Shown here: positions 1,048-7,273 of the stretch, one piece after another
Numbering within the stretch: the first letter of the stretch is position 1
Layout: the number at the start of each line of letters is the position of its first letter
Assembly (NCBI GenBank): GCA_938021675.1
Contig: CALIFY010000031.1
Span: forward strand, 1 to 60,239
Direction: 5' to 3'
DNA length: 60,239 nt
Origin: an uncultured Acidimicrobiales bacterium
GTDB lineage: Bacteria > Actinomycetota > Acidimicrobiia > Acidimicrobiales > SZUA-35
Notes under the pieces: generated by a model
What the model saw: only the letters and a program-made list of their open reading frames with translations
Databases searched by the model: none
What the model was told of the DNA's origin: nothing
Position numbers and translations under genes: made by a program

Positions 1048-2725
1048 AACGGCCACCGGCCAAGGCCGACGGCAGCAGGCGGACTCCATCGCTGTCGTAG
1101 CGGTTGAACGGCACCAGCCGTCGGTCGCCGACGATGCGCAGGGAAGCGGGTTGATAGGCGACTCAGCCCGCATCGCCATCGCCTCGGCCCTAAGCCGAAT
1201 CACCGGCTTGGCCCGAATCATGGTTTCCGCTGCCGTGCTCGGGCCAACGGTGCTCGGCGACCTGTTCGTCGCCGTCAACGTGCTCCCCCTCGTGCTCTAC
1301 GACGTATTGGCCGGGTCGGCCATCTCATCGGTCCTCGTGCCCCCTCTCGTTCGGTACCTGCGAGCCGGCGACCGCGCCGCGGCCGGTCGCCTGGCCGCCA
1401 ACTCGCTGGGCGTCATCGTCGTCTCCATGGCCGTAGTGGCCGGCATTGCCGTAGCGGCCAGGTCGGTCATCGCCGGGGTGCTGACGTCCGGCGTCGACGA
1501 CGCCCTCCGGTCGGATGCGATGGCGACTGCCGCCCTGTTGGCCGCGGTGATACTCCCCCAGTTGGTCCTCTACGCGGCGATCGGCGTCTTCGTTTCGGTC
1601 CAACATGCCAACCGCAACTTCCTACTCCCTTCGGTGGCACCGGTCATTGAGAATCTGGGGCTGGTAGCCACCGTCGTCATCGTGTTCCTCCGATTCGGTC
1701 GGGGGTGGGAGGTAGACACCGCCCCCCGTGATCTCATGTTGCTACTGGCTCTCGGGTCCGGGTGTTCGGTCGCAGCCCATGCAATCGTCCAATACGCCGG
1801 TGCCCGTCGATCCGCTGGTCGGTCGCTTAGACCATCGCTGCACTGGCGGCACCCAGACCTCATCGCGCTGGCCCGACCGACCGCCGATTCGTTCATCTGG
1901 TCAAGCGTCATCGCCGCCCGCCAATTCGCGCTCGTGGTAGCGGCCGGGTTCGCCGGCGCCGGCGGCGTTCAAGCCTTCCAGCTCGCCATGCTCGCCTACT
2001 TCGTGCCGCTGGCTCTCATCGGCCGACCGATCGCATCAGCCGCACTCCCTCGCCTCGTCGGTACCGACCGCTCCCAACAGCTGAGCAAGAGCACAAGATT
2101 GGGATACCGGCGGGCGGTACGCCTGGCGTCCTGGCTGGCCGTCCCGGCCGGATTGGGCCTGCTCGTCATGTCTCGTCCGCTGGCCACAGTGGTCGCCCGC
2201 GGTGACTTCGCCGACCCGGCGGCAGTCACCTTGATCACCGCAGCGTTAGCCGGTCTGGCCATCGGAGCGGCGTCCGAAGCGTTGTTCGAAGTGGCCAGGC
2301 AGACATCGATGGCCAGTGGTTCGGCGGTCGCCCTTCGGCGATCGACCCTCGTCCGGGCTGTGGTGTCGATCGTCGGGATTCCGGTGACGGTCGCCGCCCT
2401 CGACGGGCCGGCCCTGCTCGTCGGGCTCGGCCTCGTCGTCACCGTTTCCGACCTGACGGCCCTACTCACCATTCACCGCCCGCTCCGAGCAACACGCTCA
2501 GTCGATGCCGACCCCCGGCACTGGCCCCGGCTCCTACTCTCGGCCATCGTCGCCGCCGGTCCGACGATCCTGATCGATCGAGCCGCCACTGACTGGTCGG
2601 CAGCAAGCCGGGTGGCGGTCTCCAGCGTCGTGCTTGTCGGACTGTTCGCCGCCTCGGCCTGGGTTACGACCGATCAGGGCCGGCTGCTCAGCGTCCTCGA
2701 AAACGAACCAGGAACTTCGGAATGA
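1040..2725 (+). CDS. MurJ/MviN-type lipid-linked oligosaccharide flippase (Wzx role)
   Basis: The product is 561 residues with about 13-14 hydrophobic segments. After a polar N-terminus of about 35 residues comes a MurJ/MviN-like start (ALSRITGLARIMVSAAVLG) and the region LADLFVAVN-like 'LGDLFVAVNVLPLVLYDVL', typical of the MOP-superfamily MurJ branch. MurJ flips lipid II. Here, placed between a Wzz-like gene and a Wzy polymerase, the likelier substrate is an undecaprenyl-linked exopolysaccharide repeat unit. The ATG lies inside the end of the upstream gene (8-base overlap), and its stop overlaps the next start in an ATGA, so translation is probably coupled. A role in peptidoglycan synthesis cannot be excluded from sequence alone. 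Confidence 0.8.
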   Translation: MAETATGQGRRQQADSIAVVAVERHQPSVADDAQGSGLIGDSARIAIASALSRITGLARIMVSAAVLGPTVLGDLFVAVNVLPLVLYDVLAGSAISSVLVPPLVRYLRAGDRAAAGRLAANSLGVIVVSMAVVAGIAVAARSVIAGVLTSGVDDALRSDAMATAALLAAVILPQLVLYAAIGVFVSVQHANRNFLLPSVAPVIENLGLVATVVIVFLRFGRGWEVDTAPRDLMLLLALGSGCSVAAHAIVQYAGARRSAGRSLRPSLHWRHPDLIALARPTADSFIWSSVIAARQFALVVAAGFAGAGGVQAFQLAMLAYFVPLALIGRPIASAALPRLVGTDRSQQLSKSTRLGYRRAVRLASWLAVPAGLGLLVMSRPLATVVARGDFADPAAVTLITAALAGLAIGAASEALFEVARQTSMASGSAVALRRSTLVRAVVSIVGIPVTVAALDGPALLVGLGLVVTVSDLTALLTIHRPLRATRSVDADPRHWPRLLLSAIVAAGPTILIDRAATDWSAASRVAVSSVVLVGLFAASAWVTTDQGRLLSVLENEPGTSE

Positions 2726-5196
2726 CCGCCTTCGTGCTCCCCCAGCAACCGATGACCGTCGCAACGGCTGGCGCCGGTCGAGCCACTTCGCTGACGCCAT
2801 CGAACCCAGCCGTTGCTCTTGTCGCCCTTTATGTGGCCCTCATGCCATTGGTTGCCGGCATCCCGAGAGGAACGCCGGTACCTCTGCTGCGACCGAGCGA
2901 GCTGCTGTTACTCATAGCCGGCGGGGCGGCGGCTGCGACGGCGATAGGCCCGGCCATCGACGGCGCCCGCTGGCGACTACGGATCGGCCCGGTCGAATGG
3001 TCGATGCTCGGGCTGGTCATCACCGGTTCTGTCATTCCAGTGCTTTGGGTGATCGCCCGGACCGGCACCATCGGTGGCGGCGACACACTGGCCGCCTTCC
3101 CATTCGTAAAGTACGCCGCCTTGTTTCTCCTGGTCCGGCTGTCGGTCCGGACCATCGACGACGTACTGTTCGTCCGCCGGGCGGTTATCACCTCCGGACT
3201 CGTCATCGCCGGCCTCGCCGTAGCTCAAGCGCTCGGGGTTGGACCGATCATCGACGTGCTCGGCCAGTTCTTCGTGAGCAACGCCGAGGACGTCGTCGAC
3301 GGGGGTCGGGCCACCACCACGATCGGTTCGTCGATCGCCACCGGCGCCTACCTCAGCCTGTCCGCAGCTACCTCGCTCTCGGCCGCGCTCTCGGCCGCGC
3401 TGAACTCGACCAGCGACAACATCGGTACCATATGCCGATGGGCGCTCATCACCGCGGCACTGGTGGTTGGAGCGTTGGCCAGCGGACAGGCGGGCACCAT
3501 AGTGGCGCTGGCCGTGGCGTTGATCGTTGTCGCTATCGGCCACCGACGGTTGGGCGCCGTCACCGCAACCGCCGTTCCCGTCGGCCTTCTGGCCATGCTG
3601 GCCTTGTGGCCCGTGGTCGCCGCCCGGCTGGCAGACGTCGACCGCGGCACCGGTCTCCCATCGAGCTGGTTGGTCCGCTGGAACAACGTGTCCACCCTGT
3701 ACTTTCCCGATCTGGCCGACTGGGGTTGGGTCCTCGGCGTCGGTCCGGACACCACCCGAACCCCGCCAGATGTCTGGCGCCAAATCGTCTATTTGGAGAG
3801 CGGTTACCTGTGGCTCCTGTGGGTCGGAGGAATCCCATTACTCATAGCCGCTGGATATTTCTTGTGGACGGCCTGGCGCCAGATCGGCTCGACCACCGCG
3901 GTGACCGGCGACCACGACCGAGCGTGGCTGGCGATGCGGGTCACGGCCCGAGCGGCGGTGGCCATGATGGTGGCGCTGACGATCATCGATCCCCACCTGA
4001 CGCTGCGGGCGAGCGCCGACCTGTTCTACGTGCTGGTTGCCGTCGGGCTCACGGGCCACGGCCTGGCCAGGCGGGCACCGAGCACCGTCGACGGGTGGCG
4101 GGACCGACTCGGCGCGTCGCTCACCATCGACTCGACAGACCGGATGGTCATCGCCGACGTACCGGTCGAGGCCCGACCGGCGATCGACTCTCCCGCTGGC
4201 GACGCGCCGGAAGCATCGCTTCTCCTCGCGGTGACGCGGTCCGGTAGAACGGTCGCTTCGACCAGACTCGATCTGAACCGCCGCCGCCAACAACTCCACG
4301 GTCAACTGGCGAACCCCATCTCTTCGACCGACCCGCACGCTGCCGCTCTGACGTGGCGGTCGATTGCCCTCTGCGCGACCTCGCTCCGTCTGGCTTCGCT
4401 GACCGACGCGACCGGCGATCGGTTCGACCGACCCGACATACGACGAGCGGGGCGCCTCGCCGACCAGCTCTGCGCCTACGACCGCAACGCCGCCGGCAAG
4501 GCCGTCGACCGGCTCACCATCGAGGACCAGACCACCCCATGGCGACAGCAAACGAGCGGCTATCCGGCCGTCCGGCTGGAGACCGACATGACCATCCCAC
4601 GATGGAAACGGGCGTCCGATGTGGTGCTCGGTGCGGTCGCTCTCGTCCTCGCCGCGCCGGTCATGGCCACCGCCGCGTTGTTGGTCCGCCGGTCGGGGGC
4701 CGGCCCGGTCATCTACCGCCAGCTCAGGATCGGAAGCGGTGGCCTCCCGTTCCAAATCAACAAGTTCCGCACGATGTATCTCGGCAACGACGACAGCGCC
4801 ATGCGAGAACAAAACCGGCGGGAGTTACGTGGCGAATCCGGCGCGGCCAAAGAGGCGGGCGACGCCAGAATTACCCCCATCGGTCGACACCTACGCCGCC
4901 TCTCGCTCGACGAGCTGCCGCAGCTCGTCAACGTGCTTCGAGGTGAAATGTCGCTGGTCGGGCCCCGCCCGTCACTGCTGTGGGAGGTCGAATTGTTCGA
5001 ACCGACGTACCGAAAGCGACTACGAGCCAGACCAGGGCTCACCGGGCTCTGGCAGGTAAGCGGTCGAGCCGACGTCTCGATGAGCGAGATGCTGATCCTC
5101 GACCTCGACTATTTGGAACGCATCGGCCCCACGGTCGATCTTCACTGTTTGGTCGGCACGGCCACCTCGGTCCTGTCGGGACGGGGGGCACGATGA
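2722..5196 (+). CDS. Fusion of O-antigen polymerase/ligase-like domain with a polyprenyl-phosphate sugar transferase
   Basis: This 824-residue protein has three parts. Residues 1 to about 450 form about 10-12 membrane segments with the look of Wzy/O-antigen ligase proteins. Residues about 455-622 are a soluble linker of no recognised family. Residues 623-824 are a complete bacterial sugar transferase (PF02397/WbaP-type): a membrane segment after RWKRASDVVLG, then INKFRTM, LSLDELPQLVNVLRGEMSLV, GPRP and ARPGLTGLWQVSGR. The transferase would load the first sugar-phosphate onto undecaprenyl phosphate, and the Wzy part would polymerise or ligate the repeat unit. Start ATG overlaps the upstream stop (ATGA), and the stop overlaps the next start. 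An in-frame ATG at 4588, six bases after GGAG, sits exactly where a free-standing transferase would begin. Confidence 0.88.
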   Translation: MTAFVLPQQPMTVATAGAGRATSLTPSNPAVALVALYVALMPLVAGIPRGTPVPLLRPSELLLLIAGGAAAATAIGPAIDGARWRLRIGPVEWSMLGLVITGSVIPVLWVIARTGTIGGGDTLAAFPFVKYAALFLLVRLSVRTIDDVLFVRRAVITSGLVIAGLAVAQALGVGPIIDVLGQFFVSNAEDVVDGGRATTTIGSSIATGAYLSLSAATSLSAALSAALNSTSDNIGTICRWALITAALVVGALASGQAGTIVALAVALIVVAIGHRRLGAVTATAVPVGLLAMLALWPVVAARLADVDRGTGLPSSWLVRWNNVSTLYFPDLADWGWVLGVGPDTTRTPPDVWRQIVYLESGYLWLLWVGGIPLLIAAGYFLWTAWRQIGSTTAVTGDHDRAWLAMRVTARAAVAMMVALTIIDPHLTLRASADLFYVLVAVGLTGHGLARRAPSTVDGWRDRLGASLTIDSTDRMVIADVPVEARPAIDSPAGDAPEASLLLAVTRSGRTVASTRLDLNRRRQQLHGQLANPISSTDPHAAALTWRSIALCATSLRLASLTDATGDRFDRPDIRRAGRLADQLCAYDRNAAGKAVDRLTIEDQTTPWRQQTSGYPAVRLETDMTIPRWKRASDVVLGAVALVLAAPVMATAALLVRRSGAGPVIYRQLRIGSGGLPFQINKFRTMYLGNDDSAMREQNRRELRGESGAAKEAGDARITPIGRHLRRLSLDELPQLVNVLRGEMSLVGPRPSLLWEVELFEPTYRKRLRARPGLTGLWQVSGRADVSMSEMLILDLDYLERIGPTVDLHCLVGTATSVLSGRGAR
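4578..4590 (+). promoter_or_regulatory. Possible internal ribosome binding site and start inside the Wzy-transferase fusion
   Basis: GGAG at 4578-4581 is followed after six bases by ATG at 4588-4590, in frame with the fusion. Translation from here would give a 202-residue protein starting MTIPRWKRASD, the usual N-terminal form of short PF02397 sugar transferases. Whether it is used is inference; an in-frame ATG with an SD-like string also arises by chance. Confidence 0.35.
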
Positions 5197-6140
5197 AGAC
5201 AAAGAAGGCTGAGACCACGGCATTCGTGGCCACGATCGGGGGTCATATCAGGGAGCTGGTTGAGCTTGCCAAAAGGATCCCAGCCGACGGCCCGACCGTG
5301 TGGATCACCAACGACAGCCCGCAGACCCGCGACCTCCTGGCCGATCGAGACACCATCTTTGTCCCGTTCGTCGCTGAGCGAGATGTTGCCGGTGTGCTCC
5401 GATCGACCCTGGATGCCCGACGGTTGTATCAGGTCAACGGCGTCGGCCGGGTCATTAGCACCGGCTCGGCCATCGCCCTCGGATACCTTCCGGTTGCCGC
5501 CGCCCTCGGCATCGAGGCTCACTACATCGAGAGTTCAACCCGCATTCGCAATCCATCGGTGACCGGGCGGCTCCTCGCCCGCACCCCGGGGGTTCGCTGC
5601 TGGTGGCAATACGGCGACACCCCGCCCAGATTCCAACGAGGTGCCGGGGTCTACGACCGCTACCGGTCGGTCGAACAGGACGGACCGACCTCGATTCGCC
5701 GGATGGTGGTGACGGTCGGTACGACCGACCGTGACTTCCGTCGGCTCATCGAACGATTGACAACGATCGTTCCGACCGGGACCGACGTCTTGTGGCAGAC
5801 CGGGGCCAGCGATGTTACGGGGCTCGGAATCGATGGGCGCCCGATGGTGCCCGCCTCGGAGCTCGCAGCCGCCGTTGCCGAGGCCGACGTTGTCGTAAGC
5901 CACGCCGGGACCGGTTCGTTGGCTCTGGCGCTCGACGCCGGTCATGCCCCGTTGTTCATCCCTCGGAGATCGACCTACGACGAACAGATAGACGACCATC
6001 AGATCGAGCTTGCGGACTGGGCCGCCGAAGCAGGGTTGGCCATATCGGTTGAGGCCGACCAGATCGAGTATCACCACCTCGAAGCGGCCGCTCGGAAACG
6101 GATTATGACATCACCAGTAGGAGAGTTGGTACTGCAATGA
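5193..6140 (+). CDS. Alg14/Alg13-type (PssD-PssE-like) fused glycosyltransferase
   Basis: The product is 315 residues. The N-terminal half (GGHIRELVELAKRI) resembles the Alg14/PssD membrane-anchoring subunit. The C-terminal half has the Alg13/GT28 nucleotide-sugar binding signature VVSHAGTGSLALALDAG, followed by IPRR and an EQIDDHQ segment. In many bacteria these are two proteins (PssD/EpsE, PssE/EpsF) that together add a sugar to a polyprenyl-linked acceptor; here they form one chain. I chose the ATG at 5193 because it overlaps the upstream stop by ATGA and yields a normal N-terminus. The frame is open further upstream, but that part lies within the sugar transferase gene. Sugar specificity cannot be read from the sequence. 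Confidence 0.82.
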   Translation: MKTKKAETTAFVATIGGHIRELVELAKRIPADGPTVWITNDSPQTRDLLADRDTIFVPFVAERDVAGVLRSTLDARRLYQVNGVGRVISTGSAIALGYLPVAAALGIEAHYIESSTRIRNPSVTGRLLARTPGVRCWWQYGDTPPRFQRGAGVYDRYRSVEQDGPTSIRRMVVTVGTTDRDFRRLIERLTTIVPTGTDVLWQTGASDVTGLGIDGRPMVPASELAAAVAEADVVVSHAGTGSLALALDAGHAPLFIPRRSTYDEQIDDHQIELADWAAEAGLAISVEADQIEYHHLEAAARKRIMTSPVGELVLQ

Positions 6141-7273
6141 CCTCACACGAGCCCGTGGCCCCCAACATGGCGTTGGCGCCAGCTTCGAACGATCACTCCC
6201 CCGATCGCTCCCCCGATCACTATTACCCGGATCGGGATCCGAAGAACCGGGCGGCGATCAAAGCAGCGCGCCATCTCTCGGCGGTTCCGGCCGCGCCCGA
6301 AACCGATCGGGGAACCGTCACCCTATTCAACGGTGCCCGGTGGCGAGAAGCGGTCGAGGCAAGTTTTGACGTCACGATACGGTGCTTCACCCCGACCTCT
6401 GACCCCGATGGGCATGCCTACTACTCGCTGGTGTCGGACATCCGCGGCGATCGAGTCGTATGCACTCCGTTCAGCGACGTCTGCGACCCACTTCTTTCTG
6501 CAGCGGGGTGGCGAGAATTCGCCGCCCACCTCAGATCGTTCGAGCTTCCGACGACAATCCGGCCGTTCACCAACCCAGCGGCGGTGGCCGACGACTCCTT
6601 CGAGGTCCGTCGCGAGCTGCTCTGGCACGGCATCGACCTCACCGGTGGGGCCGAGGCCATCTGGGACGGACTCAAAACCAAACTGCGGACATCGATCCGT
6701 CGAGCCGACAAGTCTGGTATTTCGCTGCGTTGGTCGACCGAGCCGGCCGACGTCGAGGTCTTCCACCGGATGCATGTCAACCTCCGAAAGTCGAAATACC
6801 GGTTGCTCGCCCAACCCCTGTCGTTCTTCATGAACCTGAAGGACGGGTTCGGCGACGACATGGCGTTACTGATCGCTGAACAGCACGGTTCGCCCCTGGC
6901 GGCAATGATCTTCTTCGTCAGCGAAGACGTCTGCTACTACAAGTTCAGCGCCTCTTACCCGGCCAAATACCGACCGAACGCTGCCATGATCATGGAGGCC
7001 TGCCGGCAGGGCGCCGATCGCGGTGTCAACTTGCTCGACATGGGACGAAGCGACATCGAACAGACCGGTCTCGTGCAATTTAAGCAGCAGTTTGGCTCAA
7101 TCGAGCGACCGTTGACGACGCTGCACTATTCGCCGGCCAACGGAGCCGACAACCATCGGGGGGCTGCGGTAAGCCAAACCCTTGGCGACATGACTCAGCT
7201 ACTCACCGATCCGACCGTTCCAGACGAGGTAACCGCCGAAGCCGGCCGTTTGCTGTACCGGTACTTCTCTTGA
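6137..7273 (+). CDS. FemAB/GNAT-fold acyltransferase (BioF2-like, PF13480 type)
   Basis: The product is 378 residues. A variable polar N-terminus of about 60 residues precedes two GNAT-like halves. The second contains LKTKLRTSIRRADKSG, HVNLRKSKYRLLAQP, SPLAAMIFFVSEDVCYYKFSA and NLLDMGRSDIEQTGLVQFK, the conserved layout of FemAB-type and PEP-CTERM/XrtA-associated acyltransferases found in polysaccharide clusters. It overlaps the upstream glycosyltransferase by ATGA and is the last gene of the cassette. It likely adds an aminoacyl or acyl group to the polymer or its lipid-linked precursor. The acyl donor is not predictable here. Confidence 0.75.
   Translation: MTSHEPVAPNMALAPASNDHSPDRSPDHYYPDRDPKNRAAIKAARHLSAVPAAPETDRGTVTLFNGARWREAVEASFDVTIRCFTPTSDPDGHAYYSLVSDIRGDRVVCTPFSDVCDPLLSAAGWREFAAHLRSFELPTTIRPFTNPAAVADDSFEVRRELLWHGIDLTGGAEAIWDGLKTKLRTSIRRADKSGISLRWSTEPADVEVFHRMHVNLRKSKYRLLAQPLSFFMNLKDGFGDDMALLIAEQHGSPLAAMIFFVSEDVCYYKFSASYPAKYRPNAAMIMEACRQGADRGVNLLDMGRSDIEQTGLVQFKQQFGSIERPLTTLHYSPANGADNHRGAAVSQTLGDMTQLLTDPTVPDEVTAEAGRLLYRYFS

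Follow-up and report, generated by a model that had tools for sequence, protein, structure and literature searches.

Bifunctional monotopic phosphoglycosyl transferases (PGTs) are a recognised class of enzymes, referred to as Bi-PGT (PMC10942596), and PglB of Neisseria gonorrhoeae is described as a PGT that carries an 'aminotransferase' domain (the printed term) at its C-terminus (PMC6133551). The gene presented here lies at positions 2722-5196 of the forward strand of a 60,239-nucleotide stretch of DNA from an uncultured Acidimicrobiales bacterium (hereafter the window), which is an entire contig (CALIFY010000031.1) of a 4.4-Mb draft genome. It encodes 824 residues, in which a Wzy-like polymerase domain, a GNAT-like linker and an initiating PGT follow one another. 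Like PglB, the protein has a complete monotopic PGT domain and a further domain on the same chain; unlike PglB, its partner is a polytopic Wzy-like polymerase, together with a flippase in two genomes, and an extra folded domain stands between the two. If the Wzy-like domain is functional, it would make the protein a PGT of the bifunctional class. Part of the background given here comes from PMC10942596, PMC12802240, PMC10653937, PMC12004945 and PMC6133551.

The Wzy-linker-PGT gene is confirmed as a genuine single-frame fusion, kept across related genomes. Its 824 codons are open, with no internal stop, and the guanine-plus-cytosine (GC) content at the third codon position is 0.80 in the Wzy part, 0.80 in the linker and 0.77 in the PGT, a near-equality which makes the whole frame look coding. 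An earlier note on this DNA, made from the letters alone, had proposed that one frame joins a polymerase-like domain, a linker and a complete PF02397 sugar transferase, and the domain search agrees. The PGT domain (residues 623-824, positions 4588-5193) contains PF02397 at residues 629-818, covering profile positions 1-178 of 179 (E 7e-54), i.e. a complete catalytic domain, and the best NCBIfam match for this part is to the C-terminal portion of exopolysaccharide polyprenyl glycosylphosphotransferases (E 6e-70, below the whole-protein cut-off). Besides PF02397, the Pfam search of the 824-residue protein at E up to 1 returned just PF23714 and PF14233, both below cut-off, and the PHROGs search gave no useful match. 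PglC and WbaP are characterised by a Lys-Arg motif, a Pro that breaks the re-entrant helix, and an Asp-Glu dyad (PMC10942596, PMC6133551); the equivalent residues K629, R630, P646, D730 and E731 are invariant in all nine linker-type fusions, the residue preceding the Pro being Ala, not Ser. The domain would transfer a sugar-1-phosphate to polyprenyl phosphate. Elsewhere in the same genome, the PGT part matches six other places and the Wzy_C model also matches six, so that the cell probably has other proteins with the PGT activity and with the Wzy activity.

As for the distribution of the fusion, at least seven other genomes among 60 relatives gave a full-length match in one open frame, at 48-55% identity, and an eighth fusion (G305), from another family, aligned at 43% over residues 19-583 and at 44% over the whole alignment. 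Taken together, the eight other Acidimicrobiales fusions are 44-55% identical to the window protein. They are found on public contigs CAMYLA010000021, JANQPB010000022, JAHELU010000074, JAOTYQ010000088, JAHEJM010000112, JAOUGG010000158, CALAJQ010000004 and JAHDEJ010000028 (L112 to L119, respectively), all from metagenome-assembled genomes (MAGs) of Acidimicrobiales, Acidimicrobiia or Acidimicrobiaceae. With the window genome, these nine linker-type fusions come from four genera in two families of Acidimicrobiales; the fusion recurs in related genomes, a point for which the earlier note had called for a survey. The gene order common to all nine is Wzz-like, MurJ-like flippase, Wzy-linker-PGT, GT28 and FemAB. 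All five genes are present in seven of the nine; L098 (= L117) stops inside the PGT at the contig end, and the operon of L099 (= L119) gave no GT28 match. A single-protein contig scan with the first 602 residues retrieved no relatives, and an alignment-based query recovered the fusion loci.

The Wzy-like domain covers residues 1-455 (positions 2722-4086), a region within which the window fusion has zero Pfam matches. The description of this part as a multi-membrane O-antigen polymerase/ligase-like domain finds support in a remote profile match, and not in Pfam Wzy_C, which does not match the window protein. The Wzy-like label is supported by two sources: two of the 24 aligned rows match Wzy_C weakly (best E 0.0012), and an hhalign comparison of the profile with six Wzy_C proteins of the same genome gave a probability of 78.6% (E 1.7e-5) over 225 columns in the C-terminal half. 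No match was found when the sequence profile of the Wzy part and linker was compared with solved structures. Averaged hydropathy gave about twelve membrane segments after merging of peaks, with a peak at columns 1-20, taken as coming from the N-termini of split relatives, excluded from the count (13 if included). Lys and Arg abound in loops 79-94, 223-235 and 383-404, and acidic residues in the long loops 168-205 and 299-365, a charge pattern which fits an N-in/C-in topology with two external loops. With the C-terminus of the Wzy part predicted inside, the linker and PGT would lie on the cytoplasmic side, as required for a PGT. In the 24-row alignment, the invariant polar residues are R49, R57, K130, R139, R196, Q256, R302, R319, N322, E359, D423, H425, R429 and D433. 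Wzy proteins cross the membrane 10-14 times and carry RXnG motifs in two large loops on the periplasmic side (PMC12004945); an RXnG-type arrangement, R319-X15-G335, occurs in all nine fusions and in 15 of the 24 rows, although such a short motif, sought post hoc, is a weak indicator. The Wzy part may polymerise repeat units.

The architecture of 57 regions besides the window was tabulated, L174, in which no match was found, being left out. They include the eight further linker-type fusions, one of which also has MurJ in frame. Of the loci recovered by the alignment-based query, 12 are not of the linker type (six split-adjacent, plus L131, L130, L128, L122, L124 and L125). In the six split-adjacent loci, the Wzz-MurJ-Wzy-PGT order is kept with Wzy and PGT as separate, adjacent and mostly overlapping genes, some PGT starts being preceded by a Shine-Dalgarno (SD)-like sequence. 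These loci belong to Saccharopolyspora (L120, L121), Actinomycetospora (L123), Mycolicibacterium (L126) and two Pseudonocardiales MAGs (L127, L129), the last two with a FemAB-like gene on the opposite strand. Homologues split at the domain boundary, which the earlier note would have read as a sign of error in the fused gene, do exist as unfused orthologues; none of them is a broken copy of the same gene. In Pseudonocardia (L130), the PGT is on the other strand, some kilobases off; L128 ends before a PGT could appear, and no PGT was found in the L122, L124 and L125 regions. It was also observed that, in Actinomycetospora straminea (L123, 8001-9467, +), the Wzy frame overlaps the PGT gene, which is read in a different frame, by more than 200 bases, either as a real overlap or through a frameshift.

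Concerning other fused arrangements, L095 5537-9634 (+) (= L113 6267-10364 (+)), from the window's own genus, reads through MurJ-like flippase, Wzy, linker and PGT without a stop over 1,366 codons. A MurJ-Wzy-PGT frame of 1,423 codons, lacking the linker domain and carrying a pentapeptide-repeat stretch between flippase and polymerase, was found in L106 5847-10115 (-), which the PGT tree places apart from the linker-type clade; flippase, Wzy and PGT are thus in one chain in two genomes. Short-link Wzy-PGT fusions without the linker domain occur in L175, L177 and L178 (frames of 785-791 codons), and Wzz-like-PGT fusions, with PF02397 complete, in five genomes of the taxonomic family to which the window belongs: L111 7984-9663 (-), L181 249-1802 (+), L183 8291-10057 (-), L187 8362-10053 (-) and L188 1846-3486 (+). 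In a Dehalococcoidia MAG (L131 6159-9347, +), MurJ and Wzy share one frame and the PGT is separate and adjacent; this PGT is sister to the linker-type PGTs (90/77), perhaps through transfer between phyla. L173 2-4909 (-) joins a MurJ-like part, an unassigned stretch (kinase-like by eye), a Wzy-like part and a GT4 glycosyltransferase in one frame of at least 1,636 codons and runs off its contig. Pfam confirmed the PF02397 and MurJ parts in the ten proteins scanned; the Wzy and Wzz-like parts of the other fusions were identified by tblastn to the window, L120 and L131 proteins. A PGT tree of 36 rows groups all nine fusions of the linker type with the PGT of G173 in one clade (99/98), and the Wzy-PGT fusion label requires three changes, at least two of which are forced by well-supported branches. 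The larger PGT tree was built without L004, L005 and L100, the PGTs of L039 and L040 are in neither tree, and the selection for the smaller tree missed the own-genome PGT paralogues L006 and L007.

The explanation that we favour, with a probability of roughly 0.65, is that the protein is a bifunctional monotopic PGT which tethers repeat-unit initiation to the polymerisation apparatus, its partner being the Wzy of its own pathway. The steps of this mechanism are deduced from the protein families, and the linker fold and topology are predicted. The Wzy part, of about 12 helices, would be embedded in the membrane, its large loops facing outwards and its C-terminus the cytoplasm, and a GNAT-like, probably non-catalytic cytoplasmic domain would connect it to the PGT. 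At the inner leaflet, the PGT would load the first sugar-phosphate onto its carrier, undecaprenyl phosphate, the GT28 and other transferases would extend the lipid-linked unit, the MurJ-like protein would flip it, and the Wzy part would polymerise it under Wzz-like control. By keeping the first enzyme near the last, the tether would allow initiation only where flippase and polymerase are present, with the result that the carrier lipid would be committed solely where flipping and polymerising are possible and fewer dead-end lipid-linked intermediates would form. The tether would also place initiation beside the flippase, since the MurJ gene overlaps the fusion gene here and is part of the same polypeptide in two relatives. 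The two enzymes would be produced one to one, and dimerisation of the Wzy part or linker could also set the dimer state of the PGT, dimers having been reported for WbaP and EpsZ. The enzymatic activities, the coupling of substrates and the role of the linker are inferences.

The main rival is a neutral operon fusion, in which a stop was lost between overlapping neighbours and the halves act independently, with no coupling. We hold it unlikely. In its favour, the genes of split orthologues are adjacent and mostly overlapping; other operon neighbours are fused as well, e.g. MurJ-Wzy in L131 and L173; and the Wzz-like-PGT fusions likewise join genes that neighbour each other in sister genomes. 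Whatever the arrangement observed, the genes that are fused stand side by side in at least one relative, and because of this the fusion may merely record gene order. The Wzz-like-PGT fusions had been considered as a sign of fusion beyond neighbours, an idea refuted by the adjacent but separate Wzz-like and PGT genes of L182, L185, L186 and L190. Against a neutral origin, the linker type is kept over nine genomes at 44-55% identity, a folded domain that is missing from the split orthologues separates the halves, and fusion of the same PGT family arose repeatedly.

Several further points weigh against a functional tether. Relatives of the L120-L129 type keep the operon without the fusion. The linker-type fusion is rare, occurring in eight of the 39 genomes of the window's family, and, of 397 genomes sampled across the order, four contain the linker domain (G173 and three with the fusion), a lower bound, as just the top few candidates of each genome were scored in the order-wide scans. 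The eight public fusion contigs are MAGs and the other fused cases come from draft genomes. At the protein level, PF04932 (Wzy_C) left the window protein unmatched, and the full-length structure model of the fusion has a mean predicted local distance difference test (pLDDT) score of 61.9, with the PGT mostly under 50; Foldseek with this model returned nothing at E 0.001 or better, and it was not used for the Wzy part. The protein product and its activity are themselves predictions.

The linker (residues 456-622, positions 4087-4587; folded core about 470-600) had been described as an unassigned stretch of some 165 residues; structure prediction now suggests a GNAT-like fold. Modelled alone, it has a mean pLDDT of 85.7, with blocks at 84-98 save one loop at 63 and a declining C-terminal tail. 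GNAT acetyltransferases fill the top Foldseek rows with probabilities near 1, but no E is under 1e-3, and in VIA-align, where each of the 50 rows shown is a GNAT-type protein, the best Z is a middling 8.6 (root-mean-square deviation 2.8 over 86 residues). On these figures, the linker might be an active acyltransferase on sugar or protein, which would make the enzyme trifunctional, and one of ten linkers does match a GNAT family, at a non-significant E of 0.24. The GNAT acetyl-CoA motif A is R/Q-x-x-G-x-G/A. At the expected turn between strand 4 and helix 3 it is absent from all ten linkers, the pattern occurring elsewhere in L114, L116 and L118, and no Pfam family did better than E 0.06 on them; because of this absence, the linker is read as a GNAT-like, probably non-catalytic domain, and a third activity appears improbable.

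The linker appears to form a unit with the PGT, since G173 has linker and PGT as a gene of its own (416 codons, on a 6-kb contig), although in this one genome only; the placement of G173 (90/53) fits an ancestral gene as well as a later split from the fusion. The G173 gene adjoins a frame that resembles glutamine synthetase by eye. Two candidate sources of the linker were rejected. The first, a former small gene between Wzy and PGT, finds no room in the split loci L120, L121, L123, L126, L127 and L129, and the intervening gene of the L037-L040 clusters, which have a distant Wzy and a separate PGT, differs from the linker where it was read (L037, L038). There (L037 3762-5852, +; L038 4123-6225, +) its product, of about 700 residues, looks by eye like a secreted beta-helix protein. 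The second, a copy of the downstream FemAB protein, gave a profile match probability of just 0.1%. The linker of L096 (= L116), at 27% identity, fell below the tblastn threshold and was located by alignment.

The earlier note had also pointed to an internal start (4578-4590), by which the gene might yield both the fusion and a free short PGT. The signal is there as described: GGAG at 4578-4581 is followed by six bases and then by an in-frame ATG at 4588, where a short PGT usually begins. It is not conserved, however, a start codon with an SD sequence within ten codons of the boundary being found in one of the nine fusions, the window alone. Starts without an SD sequence lie near the boundary in L093 (GTG, +2), L096 (TTG/ATG, +3/+8) and L097 (GTG, +10), and the remaining five fusions have no start codon within ten codons of it; elsewhere from codon -40 to +29, SD-preceded starts occur only in L093 (TTG, -38) and L098 (GTG, -19). 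In the 32 window open reading frames (ORFs), an SD-like 4-mer precedes 20 of the 187 internal in-frame ATGs, and 0.059 start-plus-SD pairs are expected per 11 codons, so that the boundary pair is just mildly unlikely by chance. SD use in the window is poorly calibrated, since the 4-mer precedes only seven of 32 gene starts, which were taken from the longest ORFs and of which many are probably incorrect. The free-standing relative in G173 begins before the linker, and not at this boundary. Examined in all nine fusions, the internal start did not hold up, and a second, free product is very improbable. That an assembly or sequencing error merged two genes is almost negligible and already refuted for the linker type, since, even if the contigs are draft metagenome ones and fusion genomes G001 and G023 have 8% contamination, the same junction and linker recur in nine genomes under separate assembly accessions, with a continuous third-position GC.

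A bolder extension of the tethering explanation is put forward tentatively. Across the operon family, the PGT could be a physical subunit of the Wzx/Wzy/Wzz assembly, a contact that separate lineages would have independently made covalent as PGT-Wzy, flippase-Wzy-PGT and PGT-Wzz-like fusions; in two genomes, initiation, flipping and polymerisation would all be functions of a single chain about 1,350-1,420 residues long, and the PGT of the linker-type clade would be regulated by a recruited pseudo-GNAT, at the place of the domain of unknown function (DUF) in large PGTs. Schemes usually show initiation as a cytoplasmic step of its own, apart from the polymerase. Since one PGT family is fused to Wzy, to flippase plus Wzy and to Wzz-like proteins in sister lineages, the initiator may instead belong to the export-polymerisation complex. 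These fusions are one-chain constructs which allow a direct test of that idea, for which the cultured split orthologues (Saccharopolyspora, Actinomycetospora) offer a tractable comparison. Which glycan pathway draws on the limited undecaprenyl phosphate, and how this is regulated, is presented as an open question (PMC12802240).

The fusion gene belongs to a set of five genes on the forward strand, overlapping pairwise by 4 to 8 bases. The first (1-1047) is an open frame for a Wzz-like chain-length (PCP-type) protein whose 5' end is lost at the contig start and whose homologues stand beside all eight other fusions. It overlaps by 8 bases the gene for a MurJ-like lipid-linked-sugar flippase (1040-2725; PF03023, E 2e-32), to which a Wzx role may be attributed. 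Downstream of the fusion are a GT28-type glycosyltransferase, PssD/PssE- and WelK-like (5193-6140; PF04101 above cut-off, E 2e-10), and a FemAB/GNAT-type protein, the final gene of the overlapping set (6137-7273; PF13480 above cut-off, E 3e-12; TIGR03019 below, E 7e-17). ATGA overlaps at 2722, 5193 and 6137 suggest that the operon genes may be translationally coupled. Automated ORF calls were unreliable in this GC-rich DNA and served for the junction letters only.

'Wzz-like' is a working label only. None of the chain-length family models scored above cut-off in ten Wzz-like proteins; PF02706 was matched below it by three (E 0.013-0.26) and NCBIfam chain-length models by six (best E 3e-8, in L172). 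L120, L126 and other homologues gave weak sub-cut-off matches to Wzz or chain-length models, TuaF was the sole, weak match of the N-terminal parts of L181 and L188, and the window protein (1-1047) and L037 matched none of these models. As for the GT28 protein, scanned from position 5199, it also matches NF046028 (E 8e-29) and NF041548 (E 7e-18), each below its own cut-off. PssD- and PssE-type models match it in tandem, below cut-off, and because of this the gene (5193-6140, +) may be another fusion of usually separate partners.

Compared with other known systems, the fusion resembles the large PGTs (WbaP, WcaJ, EpsZ) in its order of membrane domain, cytoplasmic domain and C-terminal PGT, but it has a polymerase-like part of about 12 helices where they have a 4-helix bundle, and a GNAT-like domain where they have the PF13727 DUF, which was absent from the window fusion at E up to 1, so that it is not of the WbaP type. 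With the Wzy polymerases and WaaL (Wzy_C, PF04932) it may share a predicted set of about 12 transmembrane segments and two long loops with conserved Arg; unlike them, it belongs to a divergent subfamily that escapes Pfam in this protein and is joined to an initiating enzyme. With the small, PglC-like PGTs it shares a PGT domain of about 200 residues and the same motifs, although in the nine fusion genes the PGT is not free-standing. Searches of the open-access literature gave no title or abstract on Wzy-PGT, flippase-Wzy-PGT or Wzz-PGT fusions, a scope outside which lies the main PGT-fusion survey, which may list them. The key survey of such fusions is reportedly that of O'Toole et al. 2021. 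What is new here is the GNAT-like linker without the acetyl-CoA motif, the adjacent but separate Wzy and PGT genes of cultured actinomycetes and the recurrent fusion of PGTs to several partners; bifunctional PGTs are already known as a class, to which Wzy, flippase and Wzz-like partners would now be added.

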